Assembly (NCBI GenBank): GCA_913009335.1
Contig: CAJVXN010000024.1
Span: 1 to 32,671 of the forward strand
DNA length: 32,671 bases
Source: an uncultured bacterium
GTDB lineage: Bacteria; Omnitrophota; Gorgyraeia; Ghiorseimicrobiales; Ghiorseimicrobiaceae
Reading direction: 5' to 3'
Under the pieces are notes generated by a model. It had not been told where the DNA came from. It saw only the letters and a program-made list of their open reading frames with translations, and did not search any database. The position numbers and the translations under genes were made by a program. Within the stretch, counting starts at the first letter, position 1. Each line of letters opens with the position of its first letter. This document shows, piece after piece, positions 12,843-32,128 of the stretch.

Positions 12843-13775
12843 CTACTTCGGAATCTTAATATAAAACTTTGTGCCCTTGCCCTCTTCTGAAATACACCAA
12901 ATCTTTCCGCCATGGGATTCAGTAATTATTCTACAATTATATAATCCAATTCCGGAGCCGCCTTTTTTACCGAATGTTTTTCCAATTTCGAATAAAGACT
13001 TACTTATCTCTTTAGGTATTCCGGGTCCATTATCGCTTATACACATAAGTACTGAGTCCTCTGTCTTACTAACAGATAGTTCTATTTTTCCACCTTCAGT
13101 CATCGCTAAGGCTTCATCCGCATTTTTAAGCAAGTTCCAAATAACTCTTTCAAAATAATCTTTATCTATCGAAACTACTCCCTCAAACCCACAACTAATC
13201 TTTATTTCATGACGAAGCGTCATTCCGGAAACGACATCATCCAAAAATGTCTTAAGCTCAACTGGTGTTTTTGACAATTGGATTAGTTTTTCCCCTTGCG
13301 CGACTATCTTAATATCTGTCACCATCTTAGAAAGCCGCGCAACATCTCTTTCTATCTCTCCATAAATTTCAATCCGCTCTGTATCAGCAATATTTCGCCT
13401 TAACACCTCTACGCCCATCTTTATTGTCGCGACCGGATTATTCAAGTCATGAATAATACTGGAGGCATTCATACCGATTAGGGAAAATGATTCAAGCTGT
13501 TTAGCGATCATTCTGTAGGCAATTATAGTTTTGCCGATAAAAAAACCCATTATCCCCCCAAATATAATGTACAACACAGCCGGGGGTAAATGCTCCGCGG
13601 AAAATGCCATCTTAAATGCCGGTAAAACTTTACCCCAGTGAACATGCATAAAACCGACTTCTCCACCAAGATGGACCTGATGTGCCATCATGCCAAAAGG
13701 ATGAAGCAACACATAACCAAATACAGCCCCAAAAAACGTATTAAAAAATAACAGATATTTTTTAATAAAATTCAT
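12843..13775 (-). CDS. Membrane sensor histidine kinase with His-rich extracytoplasmic loop (copy 1)
   Basis: HPFGMMAHQVHLGGEVGFMHVHW between TM segments; H-box SSIIHDLNNPVATIK; NLLKNADEAL, DNGPGIP, GSGIGLYNCRIITESHGGKIW. Confidence 0.88.
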   Translation of the reverse strand: MNFIKKYLLFFNTFFGAVFGYVLLHPFGMMAHQVHLGGEVGFMHVHWGKVLPAFKMAFSAEHLPPAVLYIIFGGIMGFFIGKTIIAYRMIAKQLESFSLIGMNASSIIHDLNNPVATIKMGVEVLRRNIADTERIEIYGEIERDVARLSKMVTDIKIVAQGEKLIQLSKTPVELKTFLDDVVSGMTLRHEIKISCGFEGVVSIDKDYFERVIWNLLKNADEALAMTEGGKIELSVSKTEDSVLMCISDNGPGIPKEISKSLFEIGKTFGKKGGSGIGLYNCRIITESHGGKIWCISEEGKGTKFYIKIPK

Positions 13776-13858: not shown

Positions 13859-16270
13859 TTACAATTCCAAATATCGCAGCCTGAGGGCATTCCCAATCAC
13901 GGAAACCGAACTAAAACTCATTGCTGCTCCGGCAATCATTGGGCTTAAAAGCAATCCGAAAAATGGATAAAGTATGCCGGCGGCAATAGGAACACCTAAC
14001 GCGTTATAAATAAAAGCGAAAAAGAGGTTTTGACGAATGTTTCGCATGACGGCCCTGCTTAAACGCAATGCCTTAACAATGCCGTTTAAGTCACCTTTAA
14101 CCAAAGTAATCCCCGCGCTTTCAATGGCTACATCCGTTCCCGTACCCATGGCAACGCCTACTTCTGCTTCTGCCAAAGCAGGAGCATCATTAATACCATC
14201 ACCGGCAACCATAACTTTTGCCCCTTCACCTTTTAGCTTCTTAACAATCTTCTGCTTATCCTTTGGTTCGAGTCCGGCATAGACATCAGTAATACCTAAT
14301 TCTTTTGCAATGGCTTGAGCCGTTTTTTGATTATCGCCTGTAAGCATAACAACTTTAAGCCCCATTTTACGCAAAGCTCTAATGGCCCCTGGCGTAGTTT
14401 CTTTTATAGGATCTGAAATGCTGAGAATTCCTGCTATTTGTTTATCAGCAACAACCCAGATAACTGTCTGCGCCTTCTTTTGAAGATCAATGGCTTTCTT
14501 TTTTAATTCCTCGGGTAAGATTATTCCTGAATCTTGGATAAATTTTTGTTTTCCAAGTAAAACCGCTTTCCCATTAACCCTACCTTTAACACCACCCCCG
14601 GTTACGGATTGAAAATCATTAACAGGCTCTAATCGACAGCCTTGTTCTTTTGCGTAATTAACAACTGCGCGCGCTAATGGATGCTCACTACTAACCTCAA
14701 TAGATGCCGCAATGCTCAACAATGTTTGTTCATTCCAGCTTTTAGCTGTAATCGTAGCAGTTACCTGCGGTCTACCGGCTGTCAAAGTCCCTGTCTTATC
14801 CGTAAGAAGATGGGTAATTTTTCCGGCCTTCTCAATTGCCTCTGCGTTTTTAATCAAAATACCTGACTGCGCGCCCTTTCCCACTCCTACCATAACCGAC
14901 ATCGGGGTTGCCAGGCCTAAAGCACAAGGACAGGCGATAATCAAAACTGAAATGGCGCTCACTAAAGCATAGGCTAAAGCCGGTCTGGGCCCGAAGATAA
15001 ACCATACAGTAAAAGCAAGCACAGCACAGGCAAGCACCGCGGGGACAAAATAACCGGAAACTTTATCCGCAAGCTTCTGGATGGGGGCGCGGCTGCGTTG
15101 CGCCTGGGCCACCATATTTACAATTTGAGAAAGTAGGGTCTCAGAGCCGATTTTTTCAGTCCGCATCAGAAAAGTGCCTGTCTGATTAACGGTCGCACCG
15201 ATAACCCGATCCCCAACTTTTTTGACAACCGGAATCGGCTCTCCGGAGATCATTGATTCATCGATTGTGCTTTTACCTTCAAGAATAACGCCATCAAATG
15301 GAATTTTCTCCCCTGGCCGCACACGTAATAAATCACCTCTCTGAATATCTTCAATCGCCGTATCTTCTTCTTTGCCATCGTAAACGCGATGCGCATCCTT
15401 GGCGGCAAGGCCGAGCAATGCTTTGATTGCCTGGCCTGTTTTATTGCGGGCTCTTGCTTCAAGGAATTGCCCCAGAAGCACCAATACTGTAATAACGGCA
15501 GCTGCTTCAAAATATAACCCAATCTCACCGCCATTTTTCAATGAATCAGGAAAAATAGCCGGAAAAAGAATAGCCACCGCACTAAAACCATAAGCTGCCC
15601 CCACACCCATAGCAATCAGAGTAAACATGTTAAGGCTTTTATTCACAATCGACTGCCATGCTTTAACAAAGAAAATATTTCCTGCCCATAACACAACTGG
15701 TGTCGCTAAAACAAACTGTAACCAACGCGAGAGCTTGAGGCTCACAAAAACCTCCAGGCTAAAACCTGGAATCATCTCACCCAAACTTAAAATAAAAACG
15801 GGAATTGCTAAAATCAATCCCACCCAAAATTTATGAGATAAAACCCGTGTTTCTTTATCCTCCTCACCTGCTTCATTCGAGATAGTTTTTGGTTCAAGAT
15901 GCATGCCGCATTTCGGGCAATCGCCGGAATGGCCCTGCTCGATTTCCGGATGCATCGGACAGATATAAAGCAACTTCTGCTTTAAGGGTCTTTTCGGTTT
16001 CGATAACTCTAAAGACATACCGCACTTTACGCAATTACCCGGCCCATCTGAACCAACCTCAAGGTGCATAGGGCAAACATACTTATATTGATGTCCTTCA
16101 AATACATTCTTATTGTTAATCTTATCAACTTGTGCTTTATTTAAGAATTTATCCTGGCAATTCTTGCTGCAGAAAAAATAAACCTTGCCGTTGCTTTCGG
16201 ATTTTATAGCGCGATCCTCAATTACTTTCATCCCGCAAATAGGATCTTTTACTGTTTTTTCCATAATCAA
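13859..16270 (-). CDS. copA: Cu+-exporting P1B-type ATPase with N-terminal YHS and two HMBD (YxCPMHP) domains
   Basis: [80 protein letters not shown] and [15 protein letters not shown] (P1B-1 motifs). Confidence 0.95.
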
Positions 16271-17340
16271 TTGCTTTCGCTTACTGAAAGATATTTTTTT
16301 GCACTTAGAGCCGCTTTCGCACCTTCCCCGGAAGCTATGACTATCCTTTTACCAAAACAATTTGTCACATCGCCACAGGCAAATATACCCTCAAGACTTG
16401 TTGAACAATCAGGTTTAATAACTATCTCGCCTTTTTCATTTAGCTTAACAATCCCAGAGCAAAATTCAGTATTTGGAATAAAACCCACCTGAATAAATAC
16501 GCCGCGGCAAGAAATATATCTGATTTCTGAATTTTCATACGACTGAACAACTACGCCTTCTACCCTATCCTTACCTTCTATCTTAATAAGATCATAGTTT
16601 TCGAAAATATCGATGGAACTTTCTTTTCTAAGTTTATCGATATCACATTGATCAGCGATAAGTTTCCCCTTTGATATAAGGTTAATTTTGGAAGCAATAT
16701 TTTTTAACTCATAAGCGGTCTGCACTCCGGAATTTCCACCACCCGCTACGACCACATCCAAATCTTTAAATAAGGCCATATCCTGCACCGCGCTATACGA
16801 TACACCTTTTCTTAAAAGGCGCTCTTCTCCAGGAATGCCTAACTTTTTTCGTTTCATACCGGTAGCGATAATGATTGCACGCGCAATAATTATAGTTTTT
16901 TCTTTAGTTAAAATTTCGAATTCTTTGTCTCTGAGGCAGATTTTAACAACATCATCTATTTTATGAGCCAAATAGTGCTCATGTAAAAACTGATTCTTAA
17001 ATTTTTTTACAAGTTCTTTTCCGCTGACAAAATCAAACCCCATATAATTTTTAATCTTGGTACCATCTACCGCTTGGCCACCTATGTCTTTAGTTATCAG
17101 AAAGGTATCCATCTTTAACACCGAAGCATACACTGCTACGGTAAGACCTGCAGGACCAGCTCCGATAATAACCAGATCATAAATATACTTTTGTGAAAAA
17201 TCCTTAGGGGAATTCTTAAATTTTTCAAGGCAACCCTTTGAGCAAAATAAAAATTCCCTACCTTCAAACTCAAAAGCAATCTTTTTGTTCGTAATTTCCA
17301 TCCCGCAAATTGGATCTTTAACCATCTTTTTATCTTTCAT
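16267..17340 (-). CDS. YHS-domain fused thioredoxin-reductase/AhpF-like flavoprotein lacking CxxC
   Basis: [24 protein letters not shown], then [34 protein letters not shown] (CxxC position), [47 protein letters not shown]; 4-nt overlap with copA. Confidence 0.92.
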
Positions 17341-17423
17341 CTCTAGCAGCTTATATACGAAATATCTATTAAGGGCCTTCTCTGTATCTATACCTTCTTT
17401 ATATTATGCCTATCATAAAAATA

Positions 17424-17442
17424 TTGCAAATAGTATTTATAA
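17424..17442. promoter_or_regulatory. Candidate palindromic operator upstream of YHS-flavoprotein gene
   Basis: TTGCAAATA-G-TATTTATAA; counterpart ATGCAAATA-C-TATTTGTAA upstream of the truncated copy. Confidence 0.45.
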
Positions 17443-17657: not shown

Positions 17658-18389
17658 CTAGAAAAATGAATTCGGCATCTCAAGGTCGTGTGTTTCCAAC
17701 AGAGACTTATTTCTAAGGATGTCTAAAGTATTGCCTGCGGCAACTATCTTTCCTTTATCAATCAGGGCAACCCTTGAGCAGGTTTGTACTACTAAATCCA
17801 AATCATGAGTTACAATTATTGTTGTAAGCTTTAAAGTCTGCAGAAAATTTATCAAGTTGCGCCTATGTTTCGGGTCAAGATTGCTGCTCGGTTCATCTAA
17901 GGCAAGAATTTGTGGTTTCATTGATAATACAGTGGCGATAGAGACTCTTTTTTTCTCACCAAAACTTAAATGATGTGATGGACGTCTAATAGAGCTCACC
18001 ATATCCACTTCTTCTAGAGCATCATTAACAGACGCCTCCACTCCATCTTTTGGCAGTGACATATTGATAGGACCAAAAGCAACATCATCAAAAACTGTCG
18101 GCATAAAAAGTTGATTGTCCGGATCCTGAAAAACCAAACCTACCTTGCTCCTAATATGAGCCAAATTCTTATCATTTATATCTAGATCAAATATTCGGAT
18201 ATGGCTGTTGCCATTGCCCCTGAAAATTCCATTTAAATGGAGCAGCAAAGTAGATTTACCCGCGCCATTAGGCCCAATAATCCCAATAAACTCACCCTCA
18301 AAAACATCTAAGTTTATATTGCATAAAGCTTCTGTTCCATCGGGATAGGAGTAATCCAAATTCTTAATTTCGATTGCCTTTTCAGTCAT
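17658..18389 (-). CDS. cbiO: ECF-type cobalt/nickel transporter ATPase
   Basis: Walker A GPNGAGKSTLLLHL, Q-loop VFQDPDNQLF, LSFGEKKRVSIATVL, ALDEPSSNLDP; start reassigned to MTEKAIEIKN (ORF track 18449). Confidence 0.93.
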   Translation of the reverse strand: MTEKAIEIKNLDYSYPDGTEALCNINLDVFEGEFIGIIGPNGAGKSTLLLHLNGIFRGNGNSHIRIFDLDINDKNLAHIRSKVGLVFQDPDNQLFMPTVFDDVAFGPINMSLPKDGVEASVNDALEEVDMVSSIRRPSHHLSFGEKKRVSIATVLSMKPQILALDEPSSNLDPKHRRNLINFLQTLKLTTIIVTHDLDLVVQTCSRVALIDKGKIVAAGNTLDILRNKSLLETHDLEMPNSFF

Positions 18390-18391
18390 TT

Positions 18392-19162
18392 TTAGCTTCC
18401 AAAGATTCTGATTACGGTTAATATACTCATTATAATTAACATAAAACAAAAATCCTTCATCTTCAGTTCAAAGCCAGTTATTATTTTTATCTTCCCGTTA
18501 AATCCTCTTGAGCACATAGCAAAATATACATTCTCCCCGCGTTCATAGGTTCTCATAAATAATACACCAATCATATTAGCAAGGACCTTGACATGAAACC
18601 ACCTTGAGCCACCAGTAGTGCGTGCTTCTTTTGCTTGCTTCATTTTCATTAATTCATCCTGAACTACAAAAATATAGCGATACATAAAGGAAAGAATTAT
18701 AACAAAAACGGACGGAAACTTTAACTTCTCAAGAGCCTTTAAAAGATTTGATAACTTTGTACTGGTTATAAGAAGTATCATAGACAGAATACACAAATAT
18801 GCCTTAACCAGAATATTCCAAAGAATCATCAACCCATCATAAGTCACTGTCAACTTTAAAGTGCCAAAAGAATACCCGCCGGCAATCTCTCCTTTCTTAA
18901 AGAAAGGGATAAAAATCGCAACCATTAAAACAAATGGTATAATTACTAGCGACCTTTTTAAAATAAAGCCAGGCGGGATTTTTGATAGCAAAAACAAAAC
19001 AGCAATAAGCACCCCATATAAGGCAAAGGCAATAAATGACGTCGGCCTTGTAAAGATTACAAAGAGGATAAACGCGAAAAGAGAGATAATCTTAATCCTT
19101 GGATCAAGTCGATGAATATAACTATCTATATCACTGTATTCATCAATATAAGCATGCTTCAT
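18392..19162 (-). CDS. cbiQ: ECF-type cobalt/nickel transporter transmembrane protein
   Basis: RLDPRIKIISLFAFILFV, SFMYRYIFVVQDELMKMKQAKEART; in cbi cluster. Confidence 0.92.
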   Translation of the reverse strand: MKHAYIDEYSDIDSYIHRLDPRIKIISLFAFILFVIFTRPTSFIAFALYGVLIAVLFLLSKIPPGFILKRSLVIIPFVLMVAIFIPFFKKGEIAGGYSFGTLKLTVTYDGLMILWNILVKAYLCILSMILLITSTKLSNLLKALEKLKFPSVFVIILSFMYRYIFVVQDELMKMKQAKEARTTGGSRWFHVKVLANMIGVLFMRTYERGENVYFAMCSRGFNGKIKIITGFELKMKDFCFMLIIMSILTVIRIFGS

Positions 19163-19449
19163 TGAATTTGGCGCCGTCTAATTAAAGCCGCTAAACCATA
19201 TCCCATACCAAAAACCAATAAGGTTCCGGCTACGCCAGCAAATGAGGTGGCTAACTTTTCACTTTTAAAGTGAGGCCAGGCATAGTCAGGAATTGGCGAG
19301 GAAAAAGATGGCTCAACTTCTTTTTCAGAAAAACCCTTATCATCGGCTACTCTCTCTAAACCATCCGGTAACTGTGAAGCAAACGGTGAAAGGACCAAAG
19401 CCAGAAAAATAGCCGCCATTAAACCAAAAAGAATCTCTTTCTTATCCAT
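19159..19449 (-). CDS. PDGLE-domain protein (NikN/CbiN-equivalent)
   Basis: ASQLPDGLERVADDKGF between two TM helices, located between cbiM and cbiQ. Confidence 0.88.
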   Translation of the reverse strand: MDKKEILFGLMAAIFLALVLSPFASQLPDGLERVADDKGFSEKEVEPSFSSPIPDYAWPHFKSEKLATSFAGVAGTLLVFGMGYGLAALIRRRQIQ

Positions 19450-19451
19450 AA

Positions 19452-20087
19452 TTATTCCCCCTTTCTATATATCAAATCCGGCCTTACCTTTAAAACAAAG
19501 CCGATAACTAAACAGGTAATTATTGCCTCACCTATCCCAATAAGGGCATGTACTCCTGCCATTGCAGGAAGCGCAACCCTAAATGGCGAAGTACCAGATA
19601 TAGACAACTCAACAGCCACTGCACTTGAAGCAACAACTACGGAAAGCCAGGCACTTATACCTGTCCCAATAATAATCCCTTTGTTATCACCAATAATTTT
19701 TCTGATAATGTTGTAAATAAGATATCCTCCTATAGCACCCAAAAAAGACATATTGAAGATGTTTGCTCCTAGGGCAGTTAATCCGCCATCCTGAAAAATA
19801 AGGCATTGAGCAGTTAAGACTACAGCAATTACAATTGCCCCTGCATATGGTCCAAGTAAAACTGCTGCTAAGACTCCACCTAGCAGGTGTCCTGAAGTTC
19901 CTCCCATTACAGGGAAGTTAAGCATTTGAGCTGCAAAGATAAACGCAGCCATTACTCCCATAAGAGGCACCATTCTATCTTTTAAAACTAAAGATGTCTT
20001 TTTTAAACAATAACCAATCCCCCCTACTGAAATTAGCCAGGCAGGCGCCCAAGTATTTACCGCCAAAAATCCGTCTGGTATATGCAT
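19452..20087 (-). CDS. cbiM: Energy-coupling factor S component CbiM/NikM
   Basis: MHIPDGFL N-terminus, FPVMGGTSGHLLGGVLAAVLLGPYAGAIVIAVVLTAQCLIFQDGGLTALGANIFNM. Confidence 0.95.
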   Translation of the reverse strand: MHIPDGFLAVNTWAPAWLISVGGIGYCLKKTSLVLKDRMVPLMGVMAAFIFAAQMLNFPVMGGTSGHLLGGVLAAVLLGPYAGAIVIAVVLTAQCLIFQDGGLTALGANIFNMSFLGAIGGYLIYNIIRKIIGDNKGIIIGTGISAWLSVVVASSAVAVELSISGTSPFRVALPAMAGVHALIGIGEAIITCLVIGFVLKVRPDLIYRKGE

Positions 20088-20104
20088 AATCTTCTCTCCT
20101 TTCT

Positions 20105-21418
20105 TTAAAAATCAATTTGTGTCCTTAATCCCCCAAAAACAATAGTCTTATTTCCATTCGTTGCATCACCCCCATAGGGAGCCCATATTACTTGAACGTC
20201 TGGACTTAGAGTAAGGTGGTCATTAATTTTAAAGTTATAATAAGTCTCCAAATGCCCTTCTGATTTTGCCTCGAAACTGTTTATTTTTTTATAATCATCT
20301 GAAGGCATTACCTGACCAAAAGCAACAGCAAACACATCCTCATCTCTGCCCCATAAACTACCTGCAAGCTGAATGCCTGCGCTCCAGGATTGCTCAAGAG
20401 AAAAATCAGAACCATTCGCATAAACTTCCGGATTTTGCCAACCATAACGTGCAAAAGCACCTATATAATCGGTTAATTCCTGGTCAAAGCTTAAACCAAA
20501 ACCATAGCCTTTTTCTTTGGTTTTAGCGGCATCATCCCATTTAATATGGTCTTTATCATTCAGCCAACCATAAAATCTATAATTACCCGGCCTATCAAAA
20601 AGATTCGGTTTAAAGTTAAGCTGACCAGAAAAAAAGATATTATCAAAGGCATCTTCCCAATCAGCATTTGCATCCATCATCACAACTCCTACATCCATCA
20701 AATCTGTCGGCTGTAATAAGAGACGCACACCTACAGCATTATCATCAGGAAATTCCAATATAGGAGAATTACGAAAAATCCGCCCCAAAAATTGCGTAGA
20801 TTCATTATTAGCATATTCATTGTTATCAATATAAGAAGCAGCATCAATCTTACCAAACGTTGATATCAAGGCGAGTATTGTAAAATAGTGCTCATACCAT
20901 GCCTCTGTAAGAGAGACGCTATTATCAGAATCATCCGCGTCTCTATTTACGTTTGAAAATACTTTAAGTTCGTCTTCGACTCCTGCTCCGTCGCCTGTTT
21001 CAAGATGAAGAAAAGCTTTTGCCTTATCGTCAAATTCTTTCTCAAATTCCACATCAATGGAGTATGAACCATCTGCTGCATCTTCATTGTTTTTAGAAAG
21101 ACTATCGCCATTGGCATTATGTGTTCCCTGAAATACAAATGTCGTTCCAAGCCCCATACGTGAACCTTCCAATAATTGGTAGCCGGGAATCCTGTGCAAT
21201 AAGTGAGAATCTATATGTTTACCCAGATCCTCTATAGTCATATCTTCAAGATGTACACTTTTAGATGCAGATGCCTGCTGGGCTAATTTTGTTTCTAGTT
21301 TTATAATCCTAGCTTTTAAATCTGCCATTTCATCCTGAATACTTTGTCCAAAAACAACATCACAGGGAAGAAGCAATACACCGGCCAAAATCAACCCCTG
21401 AAACACTTTTTTAAACAT
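20105..21418 (-). CDS. Outer-membrane porin, OprB/carbohydrate-porin-like
   Basis: Signal peptide, coiled-coil DLKARIIKLETKLAQQ, ...LTEAWYEHYF..GKIDAASYIDNNEYANNESTQFLGRIFRNSP.., C-terminal beta barrel ending LRTQIDF. Confidence 0.82.
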   Translation of the reverse strand: MFKKVFQGLILAGVLLLPCDVVFGQSIQDEMADLKARIIKLETKLAQQASASKSVHLEDMTIEDLGKHIDSHLLHRIPGYQLLEGSRMGLGTTFVFQGTHNANGDSLSKNNEDAADGSYSIDVEFEKEFDDKAKAFLHLETGDGAGVEDELKVFSNVNRDADDSDNSVSLTEAWYEHYFTILALISTFGKIDAASYIDNNEYANNESTQFLGRIFRNSPILEFPDDNAVGVRLLLQPTDLMDVGVVMMDANADWEDAFDNIFFSGQLNFKPNLFDRPGNYRFYGWLNDKDHIKWDDAAKTKEKGYGFGLSFDQELTDYIGAFARYGWQNPEVYANGSDFSLEQSWSAGIQLAGSLWGRDEDVFAVAFGQVMPSDDYKKINSFEAKSEGHLETYYNFKINDHLTLSPDVQVIWAPYGGDATNGNKTIVFGGLRTQIDF

Positions 21419-21513
21419 GATCGCAATTCTCCTTGTTTGTGTGCTTCCTCTGGTTGTCCAGTCGGTATCGCAAAAATAGTATATTTTTAGCTTTGTTGGT
21501 ACAGTGGCTCCCC

Positions 21514-21660
21514 TTAAATAAAACGTTTTTTTTCTTTTTTTTCGATTTGGAAAATTTTTGAGTTGTGTATAGTAATCACTACCTCCCCATAGTTTATTTC
21601 TTGAATAACTTTTATAATCTCTTTCAATACTTTATTATCAATATCTTTTTTCTGATCCAT
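21514..21660 (-). CDS. YezD-family (DUF2292) small protein
   Basis: 48 aa, below the ORF-track cutoff: MDQKKDIDNKVLKEIIKVIQEINYGEVVITIHNSKIFQIEKKEKKRFI; fits L.EIL..L..I.YGSV.I.IHDG.VVQIE..EK pattern. Confidence 0.82.
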   Translation of the reverse strand: MDQKKDIDNKVLKEIIKVIQEINYGEVVITIHNSKIFQIEKKEKKRFI

Positions 21661-21670
21661 GCCTTTTATA

Positions 21671-21718
21671 TTGCTACTTTTAAAATAATCGTGCTACGAA
21701 TAGGTAAAAAAATACTAC
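21671..21718 (-). promoter_or_regulatory. Putative NikR half-site array upstream of yezD-porin-cbi operon
   Basis: Minus strand GTAGTAT-N14-GTAGCAC-N13-GTAGCAA between nikR copy 2 and yezD. Confidence 0.5.
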
Positions 21719-21719
21719 G

Positions 21720-22136
21720 TTATTCAATTTCTTTACCAGTGCTTGACATACTTAATGTGCCGTGTTTTACGCCTTTGACGGATTTTAAAGTATCGGTTAA
21801 TTTCTGCGCCTCTTTAGGATTACCTTTTACTGCGATTATCTCTAAACAGTTATTATGATCCAAATGAATATGTTGAGTTGATATTATCATCTTTTGAAAA
21901 TCATGCTGGATATCGGTAAGCTTATTGATTAATTTTCGCCGGTGATGGTCATAAATAAGAATAATTGCACCGGCAATCTCTTTATCATCCTCCCACTGCT
22001 TCTTCACTAATTCCTGGCGGATTAAATCACGAAACGCCTCTGAGCGATTAGGATAATTCTTTACGCGAATAAGGCGATCGAATTTATCAAGCAGATCTTT
22101 GTCTAATGAAACTCCAAATCTAAATAACTTTGACAT
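21720..22136 (-). CDS. nikR: Nickel-responsive regulator NikR (copy 2)
   Basis: Near-identical to the 5526..5942 product, including TQHIHLDHNNCLEIIAVKG. Confidence 0.95.
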   Translation of the reverse strand: MSKLFRFGVSLDKDLLDKFDRLIRVKNYPNRSEAFRDLIRQELVKKQWEDDKEIAGAIILIYDHHRRKLINKLTDIQHDFQKMIISTQHIHLDHNNCLEIIAVKGNPKEAQKLTDTLKSVKGVKHGTLSMSSTGKEIE

Positions 22137-23105: not shown

Positions 23106-23444
23106 TCATCCAAAAGTAAAGATATGAAAGATTTCATTCATATTGGACAAATTATATAATTGATTATTTTTAATCTTAGTGCCATCTACCGCTTGACCAC
23201 CTATGTCTTTAGTTATCAGAAAAGTATCCATCTTTAGCACCGAAGCATAAACTGCTGCGGTCAAGCCCGCAGGCCCTGCCCCGATAATAACCAGATCGTA
23301 AATATACTTTCGTGAAAAATCTTTAGGGGAATTCTTAAATTTTTCAAGGCAGCCCTTTGAGCAAAATAAAAATTCCCTACCTTCAAACTCAAAAGCAATC
23401 TTTTTGTTCGTAATTTCCATCCCGCAGATCGGATCTTTATTCAT
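23106..23444 (-). pseudogene. Truncated copy of the YHS-flavoprotein (YHS + first part of FAD domain)
   Basis: Residues 3-93 match the 16267..17340 product with about 2 differences, then diverge after [12 protein letters not shown] into an unrelated 19-residue tail and stop. Confidence 0.85.
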
Positions 23445-23539: not shown

Positions 23540-23558
23540 ATGCAAATACTATTTGTAA
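23540..23558. promoter_or_regulatory. Candidate palindromic operator upstream of truncated YHS-flavoprotein copy
   Basis: ATGCAAATA-C-TATTTGTAA; core CAAATA-C-TATTTG is a perfect 6-1-6 palindrome. Confidence 0.45.
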
Positions 23559-25835: not shown

Positions 25836-26768
25836 TTACTTCGGAATCTTAACATATATATTTGTGCCCTTATCTACTTCCGAAATAGCCCAAATCTTTC
25901 CACCGTGAGCCTCAGTAATAATCCTGCAATTATATAATCCAATTCCGGATCCCTTTGTTTTACCAAATGTTTTACCGATTTTAAATATATTCCTCAAGGC
26001 TTTCCGGGGTATTCCCGGGCCGTTGTCACTTACACAAATAATAACAGAATGGCTATCTTGCGTTATAGATATTTTGATTCTACCATTTTCAATCGTTGTC
26101 AATGCCTCATCGGCATTTTTTATCAAATTCCATAACACCCTTTCAAAGTAGACTACATCAATAAAAACGTCTTCGCTAATTTCAGATCTAATTTCTACCT
26201 TGCATCCTAGCGTTAATCCAGAAACAATATTTTCAATGAAATTTCTAAGATTAATGCCCTGCTTATCCAATGGAAAATTTGTCCCTTGCCGCGCACTAAC
26301 GCTTATGTCGGCAGCTAATTTTAGCACTTTTTCGCTTTGCCTCCTTATCCCATCACAACATTCATCCTGCTCAGATGACTTAGCATTTTCACATAAGTAA
26401 TCTGCGAACTGAGATATTGCTATAATATTATTCTTTAAATCATGTATAAAGCCAGAGGTATTTTCGCCGATAAATGAAAAAATTTTGAGTTGTTCATTTA
26501 TTTTTTTGTAGCTTAATATCACCTTGGCGATTAAATAAGCTACTCCTCCGGAAAAAATAACATAAAGTATTGCCGGTGGCAAATACTCTATACTAAATGC
26601 CATTTTGAATTCTGCCAAAGCTCTATCCCAATGGATATGCAGATACTTGCCTTCTCCACCGATGTGAACTTGATGAACTAGTATCCCGAAAGGATGCAAG
26701 AACACATAGCCAAATAAAGCCCCGATAAATATACTAATAGTTAAAAAATGTTTTTTAATAAAATTCAT
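25836..26768 (-). CDS. Membrane sensor histidine kinase with His-rich extracytoplasmic loop (copy 2)
   Basis: Paralogue of 12843..13775: HPFGILVHQVHIGGEGKYLHIHW; SGFIHDLKNNIIAIS; NLIKNADEALT, DNGPGIP, GSGIGLYNCRIITEAHGGKIW. Confidence 0.87.
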   Translation of the reverse strand: MNFIKKHFLTISIFIGALFGYVFLHPFGILVHQVHIGGEGKYLHIHWDRALAEFKMAFSIEYLPPAILYVIFSGGVAYLIAKVILSYKKINEQLKIFSFIGENTSGFIHDLKNNIIAISQFADYLCENAKSSEQDECCDGIRRQSEKVLKLAADISVSARQGTNFPLDKQGINLRNFIENIVSGLTLGCKVEIRSEISEDVFIDVVYFERVLWNLIKNADEALTTIENGRIKISITQDSHSVIICVSDNGPGIPRKALRNIFKIGKTFGKTKGSGIGLYNCRIITEAHGGKIWAISEVDKGTNIYVKIPK

Positions 26769-27666: not shown

Positions 27667-30537
27667 TCAATAAACCTTATTCTTGATAATATTTTTTACT
27701 TCTTTTAATAATTTATCTGTAATGTAAGGCTTTGCAAAAAATGCATCCACTCCCATATGCTGAAAAGTCTCTTTCATTCCTCTTTTCTTAGTTTGCATAA
27801 TAATCGGGATATCACAAAATTGGTTATTACGTTTTACTTCTTTAAATAACTGAAAACCGCTCATTTCACCCTGGAGCATTACAGAAAGAACAATTAAATC
27901 TATCCAATGAGTCCTTAAAATGCTAAGCGCGTTATTTCCCGTATAGGCGCAATCAACAAGATACCCCATTGCCTCAAGCCTTGTCTTTAACATAACCGCT
28001 TGGGATATGTCACCATCAATAATAAGGATTCTTTCTTGGACCATTTTTTGCACACCCCCCTGCATTGTAATCATTGCCTTTCGCTCAAGAGATATTTTAT
28101 GTATTTTTCTACACTCAAGATCACATCTCTGTTCATATATAAATACGGGTACCGGAAAAATCTGCGATTTTTTACCTTGGATAAATATAGTTATCTGCCG
28201 ATGCGTAACAGATATAAATATGGGATACCCCTGACACATAAACCGAAACTTAATATTGTACCAATCTTTAGGTAAGTTAGGATTTATTCTTATCCTGCTT
28301 TCTTCAATGCTGACTCCGGCAAAACTTTTTATAGCAATATTGATTGAGCCGCCCATTACCCCTGTATGAATCCCTTCCGGAGTAGTACCTCCCTGTGTAT
28401 CATAGATATCTGATTTTAATACATCCAGATACCAATCCCATACCTCATCGCCCCGGTTTAGCAAAGACGCCAAATAAGAATGAACCACCTTACTCAATGT
28501 CGAGCCGTGCGATGTCCTGCGTATATGATATTCATAATTCTTACGGAATATCTCCCGGTCAAACTTATAACCAAGCCGTTTAAGAATAAATTTTATCTCC
28601 GAAAGCGGGAAAAGATAAAACATCATAAGAACATCCGCCTGTTTGGCAACTTTATATTCATTAGGCGATTTTCCCTCAGCCTTTAAAATTCTATCCATCC
28701 TATGTATATTACCGTATTTCTTTTTATAGGCCTTCCAATTAAGTTCTTTTAACTTGAAATATCCTTTGAATTGACTAATAATACCACTTTTACTAATTAT
28801 TAAATTCATTTTTCGTGTGATACTATCCCACCTGTCTAATTCCCTCTGAGGAATCTTTAATTTTTTAAGTAAATCAGAGCATTGCTCCGGCGGCAAGATA
28901 TCTAACAATTGAAGCGTCTTATTCATTGTCGCCACTATTAAAAAATTAGTATAGGCATTATCACAAAAACCGGGCTTAGGAGCACCGGGAAGATGCTCAT
29001 GGAATTCATCCGGCCCCATTACTCCTTCCACATGGAAACGCCCGTCTTTTTTATCAAACTTGGACAGGCTTGAGCCAAAAAAACAGACTGAAAGCATAAT
29101 TTCCATACCGTAATCCAGCATGAAATTTATATCATGCGTACCAACCCAATATTGCCATACATTATAGGCAACGGAGAAAGAAACATGCCGCTGATGATGG
29201 CTGTAATCAGGGCCCCACTTGCCTGACATAGGATTAAGATGGATTGACTGAGTCTGTTCATCGCCATGCATACTGCTTTGCCAGGGAAACATCGCTCCTT
29301 TATATCCAGCCTCTCTAGCATTCTTACGGGCTTGAGCGAGCCTCCTATAGCGGTACAAGAGTATAGTTCTGACTATTTCAGGTGCGCGTAAATTATAAAA
29401 TGGCATAACAAATAACTGATCCCAAAAAATATGCCCCCGATATGCCTCACCATGCAGGCCGCGTGCCGGCACACCCGCGTCAATATTTAAGTTATGATAC
29501 GATGCCGTTTGTAATAAATGAAACGCATGTAACCTTAGAACCTTGCGAAAATGCACATCGCCATTAATATTAATATCAAACTTTTTCCACAAGCTAGACC
29601 ATACTTTCCTATGGGCCTCAAAAAGAATATCAAAACGGGTAGAGGTCTTAACAGTTTTAACAGCCTTCTGATAAAGGCTCCCTTTTTCGCTGTCGCAGGA
29701 GGTATAAATAGCACAAGTCTTTTCAATAAAATATTCCCTGTTTTTACGAACATGAATTTTAAAATCCTGGTATATTGCTTTTTTATTTTCTGTTATAGTT
29801 TTACCAATTGGGGTTATTTCTTTATCGCAAGAGAAAATCCTGGTTTTATAAACAGTAGCAATAATTATACCTGATTGATTAGTCTTAACCGATAATGCTG
29901 CTATGTTCTTTGCAATTTTACCTAAAGAGTGAGCCTTAAGATGTAGAGAATTTAACTGCCTGTATCGCGCCACCCCGTCGTTTCGAACATTACCGTCTAT
30001 ACCGGATCTTATTGTAATCGGCCCGTCATAATTCTCAGGAGTAATAACATACCTAATCGCACCAATATGAGGATTAGACATATCTACTATGCGCCGGGTT
30101 TGAATATCTACTATGCGCCCTTTTAAATCCTTAAGACGCATATTGCGACTAAGCAGGCCCCGGTACATATCAAGTTCTTGATAGTAAGATAATATCTTAC
30201 ACTCGCAAGGAGTTACCCACTCCTCATCAGCAAATTTAAAAGTAAGGGGCAACCAGTTAGGACAATTTACCAGTGATTCGTTAACAACATCCTTACCGGC
30301 AATGTGGCTTCTGAGCGTATTATAGATACCGGCAATGTATGTTCCGGGAGAATGGATGCGGGACGACTTTACTTCGCAGAGCGCTCCGCGGGTAGCAAAA
30401 TATCCGTTACCAAGAGTACACAATGACTCTCGTAATGCTTCTTTTGCCGGCTGGAAATGATTATAACTAAGCTTCCAGGAAGACTCCCTAGCTTCTTTTT
30501 TTAGTCTTCGTAATCTATAGTCTAATGATTTTTTCAA
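27667..30537 (-). CDS. GH65 family disaccharide phosphorylase (trehalose/kojibiose type) with C-terminal receiver-like domain
   Basis: GNGYFATRGALCE, ARGLHGEAYRGHIFWDQLFVMPFY, GVMGPDEFHEHLPG, GGTTPEGIHTGVMGGSINI; C-terminus ERILIIDGDISQAVMLKTRLEAMGY...DLIVLSVMLQGEMSGFQLF...IPIIMQTKK...FFAKPYITDKLL. Confidence 0.93.
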   Translation of the reverse strand: MKKSLDYRLRRLKKEARESSWKLSYNHFQPAKEALRESLCTLGNGYFATRGALCEVKSSRIHSPGTYIAGIYNTLRSHIAGKDVVNESLVNCPNWLPLTFKFADEEWVTPCECKILSYYQELDMYRGLLSRNMRLKDLKGRIVDIQTRRIVDMSNPHIGAIRYVITPENYDGPITIRSGIDGNVRNDGVARYRQLNSLHLKAHSLGKIAKNIAALSVKTNQSGIIIATVYKTRIFSCDKEITPIGKTITENKKAIYQDFKIHVRKNREYFIEKTCAIYTSCDSEKGSLYQKAVKTVKTSTRFDILFEAHRKVWSSLWKKFDININGDVHFRKVLRLHAFHLLQTASYHNLNIDAGVPARGLHGEAYRGHIFWDQLFVMPFYNLRAPEIVRTILLYRYRRLAQARKNAREAGYKGAMFPWQSSMHGDEQTQSIHLNPMSGKWGPDYSHHQRHVSFSVAYNVWQYWVGTHDINFMLDYGMEIMLSVCFFGSSLSKFDKKDGRFHVEGVMGPDEFHEHLPGAPKPGFCDNAYTNFLIVATMNKTLQLLDILPPEQCSDLLKKLKIPQRELDRWDSITRKMNLIISKSGIISQFKGYFKLKELNWKAYKKKYGNIHRMDRILKAEGKSPNEYKVAKQADVLMMFYLFPLSEIKFILKRLGYKFDREIFRKNYEYHIRRTSHGSTLSKVVHSYLASLLNRGDEVWDWYLDVLKSDIYDTQGGTTPEGIHTGVMGGSINIAIKSFAGVSIEESRIRINPNLPKDWYNIKFRFMCQGYPIFISVTHRQITIFIQGKKSQIFPVPVFIYEQRCDLECRKIHKISLERKAMITMQGGVQKMVQERILIIDGDISQAVMLKTRLEAMGYLVDCAYTGNNALSILRTHWIDLIVLSVMLQGEMSGFQLFKEVKRNNQFCDIPIIMQTKKRGMKETFQHMGVDAFFAKPYITDKLLKEVKNIIKNKVY

Positions 30538-32128
30538 ACAGTTCTCCTACTTCGTTTGGATCATTAAGTACAAATCTAGCGCTTGAAGGGGAATCTTTAG
30601 ATGAGACCAAAATACCACTACCCCTGGTATTTATAGTCCTAAAAGCATATTCATCGGTAGTATCATCGCCGATATACATAACGCAAGATTTATCCCATGA
30701 GATATCAAGAGCCTTCATTATCCATCTTATCGCCTGACCTTTATCCCAGGGTATATTAGGAAGTATCTCAAATACTTTTTTACCGCTTAAAAGACGCAGT
30801 GATTCATGCTCTGCGATTATATTATTAACGATTTCTTTTATATTCGGCAGATTAGCCTGATTATCGAGAAGACGATAGTGTACGGCTACGCTAAATTTCT
30901 TCTCTTCAATAAGAATACCTTTCATATCTTTAAGTTCGCGCTTTAGGCGAGTAATCACTTTATCAACAACCGAAATAACCTCTTCTGCCTTTGCTTGCAC
31001 CAGGCTAAATCCCGGACCACGAATATCAAAACCATGACTTCCGGCATAAAACAAGTTATCTATTCCTACTAAATTTTCAACATCCTCCCGCATTCTTCCG
31101 CTAACAATAGCAACGGTATATTTTTCAGAAAGCGCACGCACTGCATCCTGCATAGACTTTGATATAATCGCGTCCTGAGGCCTATTGACAATAGGCGTTA
31201 GAGTACCGTCATAATCAAGAAAGAAAACCGGCTTACCTCGTTTAAAAAATGCGTCTTTTGCGGATTGTGTATAAAATTGATTAAGAGTAACACTGATTTC
31301 TGCTTCTTGCGCATAATCCGGCATTGTAATACCTTTGGCGCTATCCCATGCGGAAAAGAGAGGTTCCGGCTTTCTACCAAACCAAGCATTACACCACTCC
31401 AGAGAAATTTCCGATAAATCATTTACAACAACATCAGCTCCGTTTTCAAGAAGCTCGCTCTTGTTATCTGCCCGAGCTATTCCTAAAACCAACCCAAACC
31501 CTCCATTTCTTCCGGCCTGGACTCCCGATACGGCATCTTCAATTACAATAGATTTAGCCGCCTCAGAATTCATATTTTTAACAGCCACAACAAATATATC
31601 GGCTTCGGGTTTACCTGTTAAACCCATCTGATCCGAAACCGTACCGTCAACGCGTGTTTCAAAAAGCACATCTAACTTCGTTGATTCAAGTATTCCCTTG
31701 CAATTTTTAGATGATGAGGCAACGCCGATTCTAACGCCGGATTCTTTTAACTTCTTTACAAATTTAACGCTTGACTCAAAAACCTCGGCCCCTAAATCTT
31801 TAAGTAAGATATTGAATAATTTATTCTTTTTATTACCTAACCCGCATACAGTCTCCGCATCCGGAGCGTCTGTCGCTTCTCCATAGAGTATTTCTATGCC
31901 TCGAGATTCCAGAAAACTCTCAACCCCTTTATATCGAGGCTTGCCATCTACGAAAGGAAGATAATCATTATCATGGGTAAACTCGCGAAACGGCTCTGCA
32001 TCTCGCGCTTGGCGCTTACGCAGGTATTCATCAAAAGTATCTTTCCAGGCCTTGGCGTGAACTTTCGCAGTCTTAGTTATTACTCCGTCAAGGTCAAATA
32101 CAGCAGAATCAAAGTTAAGTTTCGACAT
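30515..32128 (-). CDS. Fusion of beta-phosphoglucomutase-like HAD and trehalose-6-phosphate phosphatase
   Basis: N-half FDSAVFDLDGVITKTAKVHAKAWKDTFDEYL..GVASSSKNCKGILE; C-half PVFFLDYDGTLTPIVNRPQDAIIS..AIVSGRMREDVENLVG..YAGSHGFDIRGPG..YIGDDTTDEYAF. Confidence 0.93.
   Translation of the reverse strand: MSKLNFDSAVFDLDGVITKTAKVHAKAWKDTFDEYLRKRQARDAEPFREFTHDNDYLPFVDGKPRYKGVESFLESRGIEILYGEATDAPDAETVCGLGNKKNKLFNILLKDLGAEVFESSVKFVKKLKESGVRIGVASSSKNCKGILESTKLDVLFETRVDGTVSDQMGLTGKPEADIFVVAVKNMNSEAAKSIVIEDAVSGVQAGRNGGFGLVLGIARADNKSELLENGADVVVNDLSEISLEWCNAWFGRKPEPLFSAWDSAKGITMPDYAQEAEISVTLNQFYTQSAKDAFFKRGKPVFFLDYDGTLTPIVNRPQDAIISKSMQDAVRALSEKYTVAIVSGRMREDVENLVGIDNLFYAGSHGFDIRGPGFSLVQAKAEEVISVVDKVITRLKRELKDMKGILIEEKKFSVAVHYRLLDNQANLPNIKEIVNNIIAEHESLRLLSGKKVFEILPNIPWDKGQAIRWIMKALDISWDKSCVMYIGDDTTDEYAFRTINTRGSGILVSSKDSPSSARFVLNDPNEVGELFEKIIRL

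Follow-up and report, generated by a model that had tools for sequence, protein, structure and literature searches.

A YHS-flavoprotein gene next to copA

The window, that is, the whole 32,671-nucleotide stretch of an Omnitrophota contig that was analyzed, contains a flavoprotein gene adjoining a copper ATPase gene. The features on which the analysis centers are the following:

16267..17340, minus strand: gene for a YHS-FAD flavoprotein, AhpF/TrxR-like and without CxxC (ORF, 357 aa; Pfam YHS and Pyr_redox_2)
17191..17322, minus strand: YHS metal-binding domain, residues 7-50 (PF04945, 1.4e-11; ligands D9, C12, C33 and C37, plus M14)
16327..17181, minus strand: FAD/NAD module (Pyr_redox_2), residues 54-338 (Pfam E 8e-35; AhpF/TrxR fold match, E ~1e-36)
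16780..16794, minus strand: former active site, residues 183-187, with S-A-V-Q-D replacing C-x-x-C-D (sequence comparison)
13859..16270, minus strand: CopA, a P1B-1 Cu(I) ATPase that has YHS at the N-terminus and also two HMBD modules (TIGR01511, 612 bits; PF04945; PF19335; motifs)
17403..17438, minus strand: promoter-like element TTTGCA-16-CATAAT, whose -35 box is overlapped by the palindrome AAATACTATTT (scan)
23106..23444, minus strand: truncated second copy with YHS, the start of the FAD domain and an unrelated tail, 112 aa (92% identity over 288 nt)
23541..23554, minus strand: second occurrence of the palindrome/-35 motif, preceding the truncated copy (motif match)

The original prediction placed the flavoprotein gene at 16267-17340. 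The open reading frame itself stands, but the start probably does not: homologues begin at codon 6 and, therefore, the gene probably extends over 16267-17325, encoding 352 aa from the ATG at 17325. The proposed in-frame fusion of a YHS domain to an AhpF/TrxR-type module is borne out by the Pfam matches to YHS (residues 7-50) and Pyr_redox_2 (residues 54-338), and the YHS match lies above the PF04945 gathering cut-off (44.7 vs 30.3 bits). The FAD motifs are intact, as had been noted (GAGPAG and the terminal GD motif), and so is the nucleotide motif GGGNS. At the position of the redox center, the window protein has SYSAVQDM, the equivalent in E. coli AhpF is KGVTYCPHCDGPLF, and relatives have YCxxCD. 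Comparison with AhpF and paralogues confirms that both redox cysteines are gone, and the codons are as originally read. The cysteines of the protein are at residues 12, 33, 37, 135, 232, 278, 294, 312, 322 and 328, with no CxxxxC among them. With no signal peptide seen in the flavoprotein sequence, the proteins appear to be cytoplasmic.

CopA contains all the P1B-1 motifs (CPC, N-x6-YN-x4-P and MxxSS), reaches the TIGR01511 cut-off and, as claimed before, has a YHS domain of its own (PF04945, 40.0 bits). The 4-nt overlap reported between the flavoprotein stop codon and the copA start exists if copA starts at TTG 16270, but not if it starts at the in-frame ATG at 16264, which lies 2 nt past the stop and is a likely start, as likely as the TTG or likelier. 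Under either start, translational coupling of the two genes is plausible.

Upstream of the flavoprotein gene, the promoter scan gave sites no more frequently than chance. The exact 14-mer AAATANTATTTGCA has two occurrences in the 1.88 Mb genome, each of them upstream of one copy of the flavoprotein gene, and we regard the palindrome as a weak lead to a putative operator. The second copy, which is absent from the original prediction, is cut off after approximately residue 98 and keeps the GxGxxG part. Compared to the full copy, it has 17 synonymous and 7 other differences (dN/dS 0.09 over 96 codons); because the differences are mainly synonymous, it seems to have diverged mostly under selection. 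It may encode a YHS protein that stands alone, or be a relic; its neighbors are a CrcB fluoride-channel gene on one side and the palindromic promoter motif on the other. Directly upstream of the copper operon is a nickel/cobalt uptake cluster (17658-22136, minus strand) with CbiO-, CbiQ-, CbiN- and CbiM-like genes (by eye), an OprB-type porin gene and NikR (Pfam).

A rare family without the redox cysteines

The flavoprotein belongs to a family of 17 sequences from 16 genomes, including Omnitrophota, Caldisericota, Bacteroidota and Calditrichota; 15 are aligned members and two are further sequences from genome G303, one partial (L021) and one frameshifted (L023). Among 84,980 species genomes scanned, 11 loci were recovered, and their records bear the labels Caldisericota, Omnitrophota, Bacteroidales and Calditrichota, among others. 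In whole-genome profile searches, members were found in 5 of 285 genomes of the window's phylum, in 1 of 396 of the phylum of G300, in 5 of 295 of the order of the Bacteroidales genome G301, and in 1/40, 1/39 and 2/7 genomes of other phyla. The family is rare and scattered. It is also discrete, because members score 457-652 bits while the next best proteins score ~306 bits. Carriage by viruses or mobile elements was considered and rejected: viral contigs contained no family member, nor did the listed phage matches include one, and the listed plasmid matches are ordinary trxB/ahpF genes, judged by their annotations only.

The original prediction had pointed to homologues retaining CxxC as a sign of local decay. 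CxxC is present in 0 of the 17 family sequences and is kept by all paralogues from the relatives' genomes; among ~1,150 genomes, no YHS-fused form with CxxC was found in searches in which most thresholds were 1e-90 to 1e-100 and poor scorers may escape. The position of the first cysteine is variable (S, N, R, K, G or Y). The second is Gln, or His in two members, and is followed by an invariant Asp (D187), giving a Gln/His-Asp pair. In the YHS domain, C12, M14, C33 and C37 are invariant in 15/15 members, and at position 9, 13 members have Asp and the other 2 have Cys; both alternatives are known for the first ligand position of YHS/TRASH sites (PMC4626032). A further mark of the family is GKRI(V/I)IA, in which Arg332 stands where every CxxC relative has Gln. 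In the tree, the family is monophyletic and forms one clade (95/97); within it, host phyla are interleaved on moderately supported branches, which hints at transfer. Two pairs were tested for selection, and their dN/dS values of 0.045 (L013/L016) and 0.158 (L019/L050) indicate purifying selection.

These data bear on the simplest alternative, that an ordinary thioredoxin reductase or AhpF gene has decayed locally in one genome. The truncated second copy 6 kb away would fit such decay. However, all 17 sequences are without CxxC, and the same substitutions recur across 16 genomes from no fewer than four phyla, in a single clade with dN/dS well below 1. Local decay is refuted by these observations, and we give it next to no likelihood.

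As for ancestry, AhpF (4o5q) is the solved protein that comes nearest, with 189 bits and an E-value of 8e-55 by sequence and 1.2e-36 by fold. The best scores against AhpF and against a TrxR-like FNR (234.6 vs 136.2 bits) likewise place the window protein nearer to AhpF/TrxR. The C-terminal FAD/NADH module is homologous to that of AhpF and shares its GEGAKA C-terminus and its type of NAD loop. By contrast, the window protein is without CxxC and has a YHS domain instead of the double-thioredoxin N-terminal domain, and it scores below the cut-off of the AhpF model TIGR03140 (250.5 vs 502.9 bits). It also scores below the cut-off of the TrxB model TIGR01292 (262.5 vs 343.45 bits), and the family differs from TrxB in having neither CxxC nor HRRxxxR. 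Based on these comparisons, we suggest that the family descended from the AhpF/TrxR fold, in the course of which the CxxC pair disappeared and a YHS copper domain was added at the N-terminus. This suggests that the loss of CxxC in the TrxR fold, known from the FNRs, occurred again in the AhpF branch.

HRRxxxR is missing from all family members, with ISKGKLIAD at this site in the window protein. The original prediction was correct about the absence of this motif but not about its loss: the corresponding loop in AhpF 4o5q, EFAPEMKADQ, has no HRRxxxR either, and nearly all CxxC paralogues of related genomes are without it (all but one of the closest). The absence, thus, reflects the AhpF-type ancestry of the lineage, with nothing lost. 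Because the lineage is AhpF-like, the family flavoproteins are, by analogy with AhpF, probably NADH-dependent. GGGNS is retained in most members, with GGGDF in L044 and GGGNT in L051 as departures.

Copper genes around the family

The survey of genomic context next to copA that had been proposed with the original prediction gave a strong linkage to copper export. A TIGR01511 Cu-ATPase gene is located within 3 kb of the family gene in 8 of 16 genomes (P ~2.5e-13), while 0.14 would be expected from the ATPase counts, made by hand, and the genome sizes. In the other half of the 16 genomes, no Cu-ATPase gene lies within 3 kb on the contig; these mostly have a CsoR, multicopper oxidase or metal-regulator neighbor. 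For instance, a CsoR-type gene adjoins L013, L016 (by eye) and L044, a multicopper oxidase gene adjoins L019, L020 and L050 (L050 by eye), and the gene for an HMA-HTH protein is 7 nt downstream of the family gene in L052. On the contig stretches examined for L015, L017 and L018, there is no clear copper gene.

Two further types of genes were observed in these loci. In two Bacteroidales, genes for NDH-2-type NADH dehydrogenases (NDH2_C) neighbor the family gene (L049, 8857-10194, minus strand; L052, 5714-7045, plus strand). Short P-II-like genes are found near copper ATPase/RND and family genes in L014 (Pfam P-II), L019, L022, L049, L050 and L051 (by eye), and their recurrence in copper loci suggests a metal-linked P-II branch.

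Candidate functions of the flavoprotein

Because the FAD and NAD motifs and the flavin-adjacent Asp are kept while there is no disulfide, the flavin must give its electrons elsewhere. Several known systems indicate where they might go. The TrxR-like FNRs also have a TrxR fold without CxxC, and their flavin gives electrons to a non-disulfide acceptor; this group is established, and one of its members, IruO, reduces Fe(III)-siderophores (PMC8564101, PMC10294844). However, these enzymes are defined by an extension of the C-terminus in which one residue stacks on the re-face of the flavin (PMC10294844). This extension is absent here, and the window protein ends within ~5 residues of the TrxR/AhpF end. 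The window protein is also different in being nearer in sequence to AhpF/TrxR and in having a YHS domain and a copper context. In E. coli, the NADH-linked flavoprotein RclA reduces Cu(II) (PMC7527725), but it is MerA-like, keeps a CxxxxC active site, has no YHS domain and is not encoded in a copA operon. In view of IruO and RclA, the novelty implied in the original prediction, whose author was aware of no characterized enzyme of this type, was overstated; for the YHS-TrxR fusion as such, we found no description in the open-licence literature.

MerA also combines a flavoprotein disulfide-reductase fold with an N-terminal domain that binds metal. By contrast with the window protein, MerA keeps CxxxxC, and the match to the MerA profile is weak (54 of 454 bits). 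The score against NF041853 is likewise below cut-off (38 of 650 bits), and the window protein has no CxxxxC redox center of the glutathione-reductase branch, the mark of the RclA/MerA metal reductases. The N-terminal domain of MerA, NmerA, is HMA-type. Because the window protein lacks at least one tested defining feature of each of these families, it is not a TrxR, an AhpF, a TrxR-like FNR or a MerA/RclA. Two further systems match it in part. CopZ of Archaeoglobus fulgidus similarly combines a copper module with a redox domain and reduces Cu(II) upstream of CopA (PMC7558416), but by Fe-S chemistry, as a CopZ-type chaperone and with an unrelated fold. The YHS domain of an M. phlei adenylyl cyclase, also of the Asp/Cys-Cys-Cys kind, responds to Cu(II) (PMC4626032), but it is joined to a different enzyme and acts as a sensor.

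Given IruO, RclA and YHS as precedents, together with the operon, the acceptor that needs the fewest assumptions would be Cu(II), and CopA would use up the Cu(I). That the family members are FAD enzymes of copper detoxification that reduce copper or another metal, most likely Cu(II), such that CopA can export Cu(I), is in our judgment close to an even call. The more specific reading falls somewhat short of that and is tentative: an AhpF-derived FAD enzyme would have abandoned its disulfide to become a dedicated cytoplasmic cupric reductase, in which NADH reduces copper presented by the enzyme's own YHS domain and which is co-expressed with CopA. In this model, NADH would reduce FAD, and the reduced flavin, in the absence of a disulfide, would pass single electrons to an oxidized metal, the likeliest one being Cu(II) that YHS binds or presents. 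The Cu(I) formed would then move on to CopA, taken up by its YHS/HMBD modules, and be exported. In other words, the mode of action would be that of IruO, i.e. a TrxR fold without CxxC and with a metal acceptor, together with an N-terminal domain that handles metal, similar to that of MerA.

Several observations do not fit copper reduction easily. Several hosts are probably anaerobes, in which a reducing cytoplasm should already hold Cu(I); half of the genomes are without a Cu-ATPase gene within 3 kb; GGGDF in L044 departs from GGGNS; and the M. phlei YHS domain is a copper sensor and not a redox site. The predicted structure also matters here. AlphaFold2 gave a pLDDT of 67 and a pTM of 0.49 with 10 alignment rows, and a pLDDT of 87 and a pTM of 0.76 with 30 rows, after the addition of TrxR/AhpF homologues from viral contigs; a Foldseek search against the PDB returned AhpF and TrxR, with AhpF on top. 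In the predicted model, the C-terminal helix of YHS (45-51) continues into the FAD strand 53-59, and only a very short joint between YHS and the FAD domain is, thus, predicted. Judging by TrxR folds in general, the N-terminus of this strand is expected to be well over 15 Å from the flavin ring of the same subunit, so YHS may be too far from its own flavin. This expected distance weakens the picture of direct transfer between YHS and flavin, unless the dimer arrangement or a movement of domains makes up for it.

A short, rigid linker would suit allostery as well as electron transfer, and this brings in what we consider the most serious rival, which is possible but unlikely. In this alternative, the protein is a copper-gated NADH oxidoreductase in which YHS is the sensor and electrons go to quinone, flavodoxin or ferredoxin, O2, or oxidized thiols of CopA or partner proteins. 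YHS is the shown Cu(II) switch of the fused M. phlei adenylyl cyclase (PMC4626032), TrxR-like FNRs without CxxC feed flavodoxin, ferredoxin and haem proteins (PMC8564101, PMC10294844), and the two Bacteroidales loci have NDH-2 neighbors. Nevertheless, no acceptor-protein gene is conserved in linkage across the whole family, and the recurrent neighbors are metal genes.

The loss of the catalytic cysteines and the presence of YHS in both products of a closely coupled gene pair would also be consistent with a Cu(I) chaperone built on a flavoprotein scaffold, in which Cu(I) is carried to CopA by YHS and the role of the flavin is structural or regulatory (e.g. by NADH/NAD+ sensing), with no net reduction of a substrate. 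We consider this improbable: with FAD motifs that are fully kept, NAD motifs that are nearly so and an invariant D187, selection for turnover seems to continue. There is a slim chance, smaller again, that the enzyme is a reductase for another metal, i.e. Hg(II), Ag(I), Au(III) or Fe(III), that travels with copper genes. P1B/Cus-type loci often handle silver, as is well established, and MerA serves as the model of a flavoprotein with an N-terminal domain that binds metal. RclA responded to Hg(II) as well (PMC7527725). However, no mer genes were seen near any member, while Cu(I) ATPases, CsoR and multicopper oxidases recur.

Copper reduction by a flavoenzyme would address a gap that has been pointed out before. 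A review of copper homeostasis from 2020 named CcoG as the sole specific bacterial cupric reductase and judged the assumed absence of such enzymes to be at odds with the tight control of every other step in copper handling (PMC7558416). A flavoenzyme family genetically tied to a Cu(I) exporter makes this gap testable with one small soluble protein.

The window and related loci contain other genes of possible interest. The genes at 12843-13775, which comes after copA, and 25836-26768 (both minus strand) encode histidine-kinase-like membrane proteins that are 51% identical and share the N-terminus GYVxLHP...HQVHxGGE...HxHW; the 25836-26768 protein has no HisKA match. This N-terminal membrane module recurs (E 2e-7) in a protein encoded near the family gene in the Bacteroidales locus L049 (13188-13994, minus strand), which by eye has an AlbA/Schlafen-type end. 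Possibly, one sensor module is used with different outputs in copper loci. Finally, the gene at 27667-30537 (minus strand) encodes a family 65 glycoside hydrolase of the disaccharide phosphorylase type that carries a response-regulator receiver domain at its C-terminus, and this gene overlaps the gene at 30515-32128 for a HAD phosphatase/mutase fused to a trehalose-phosphatase, forming an unusual signalling-linked cassette of the trehalose type.
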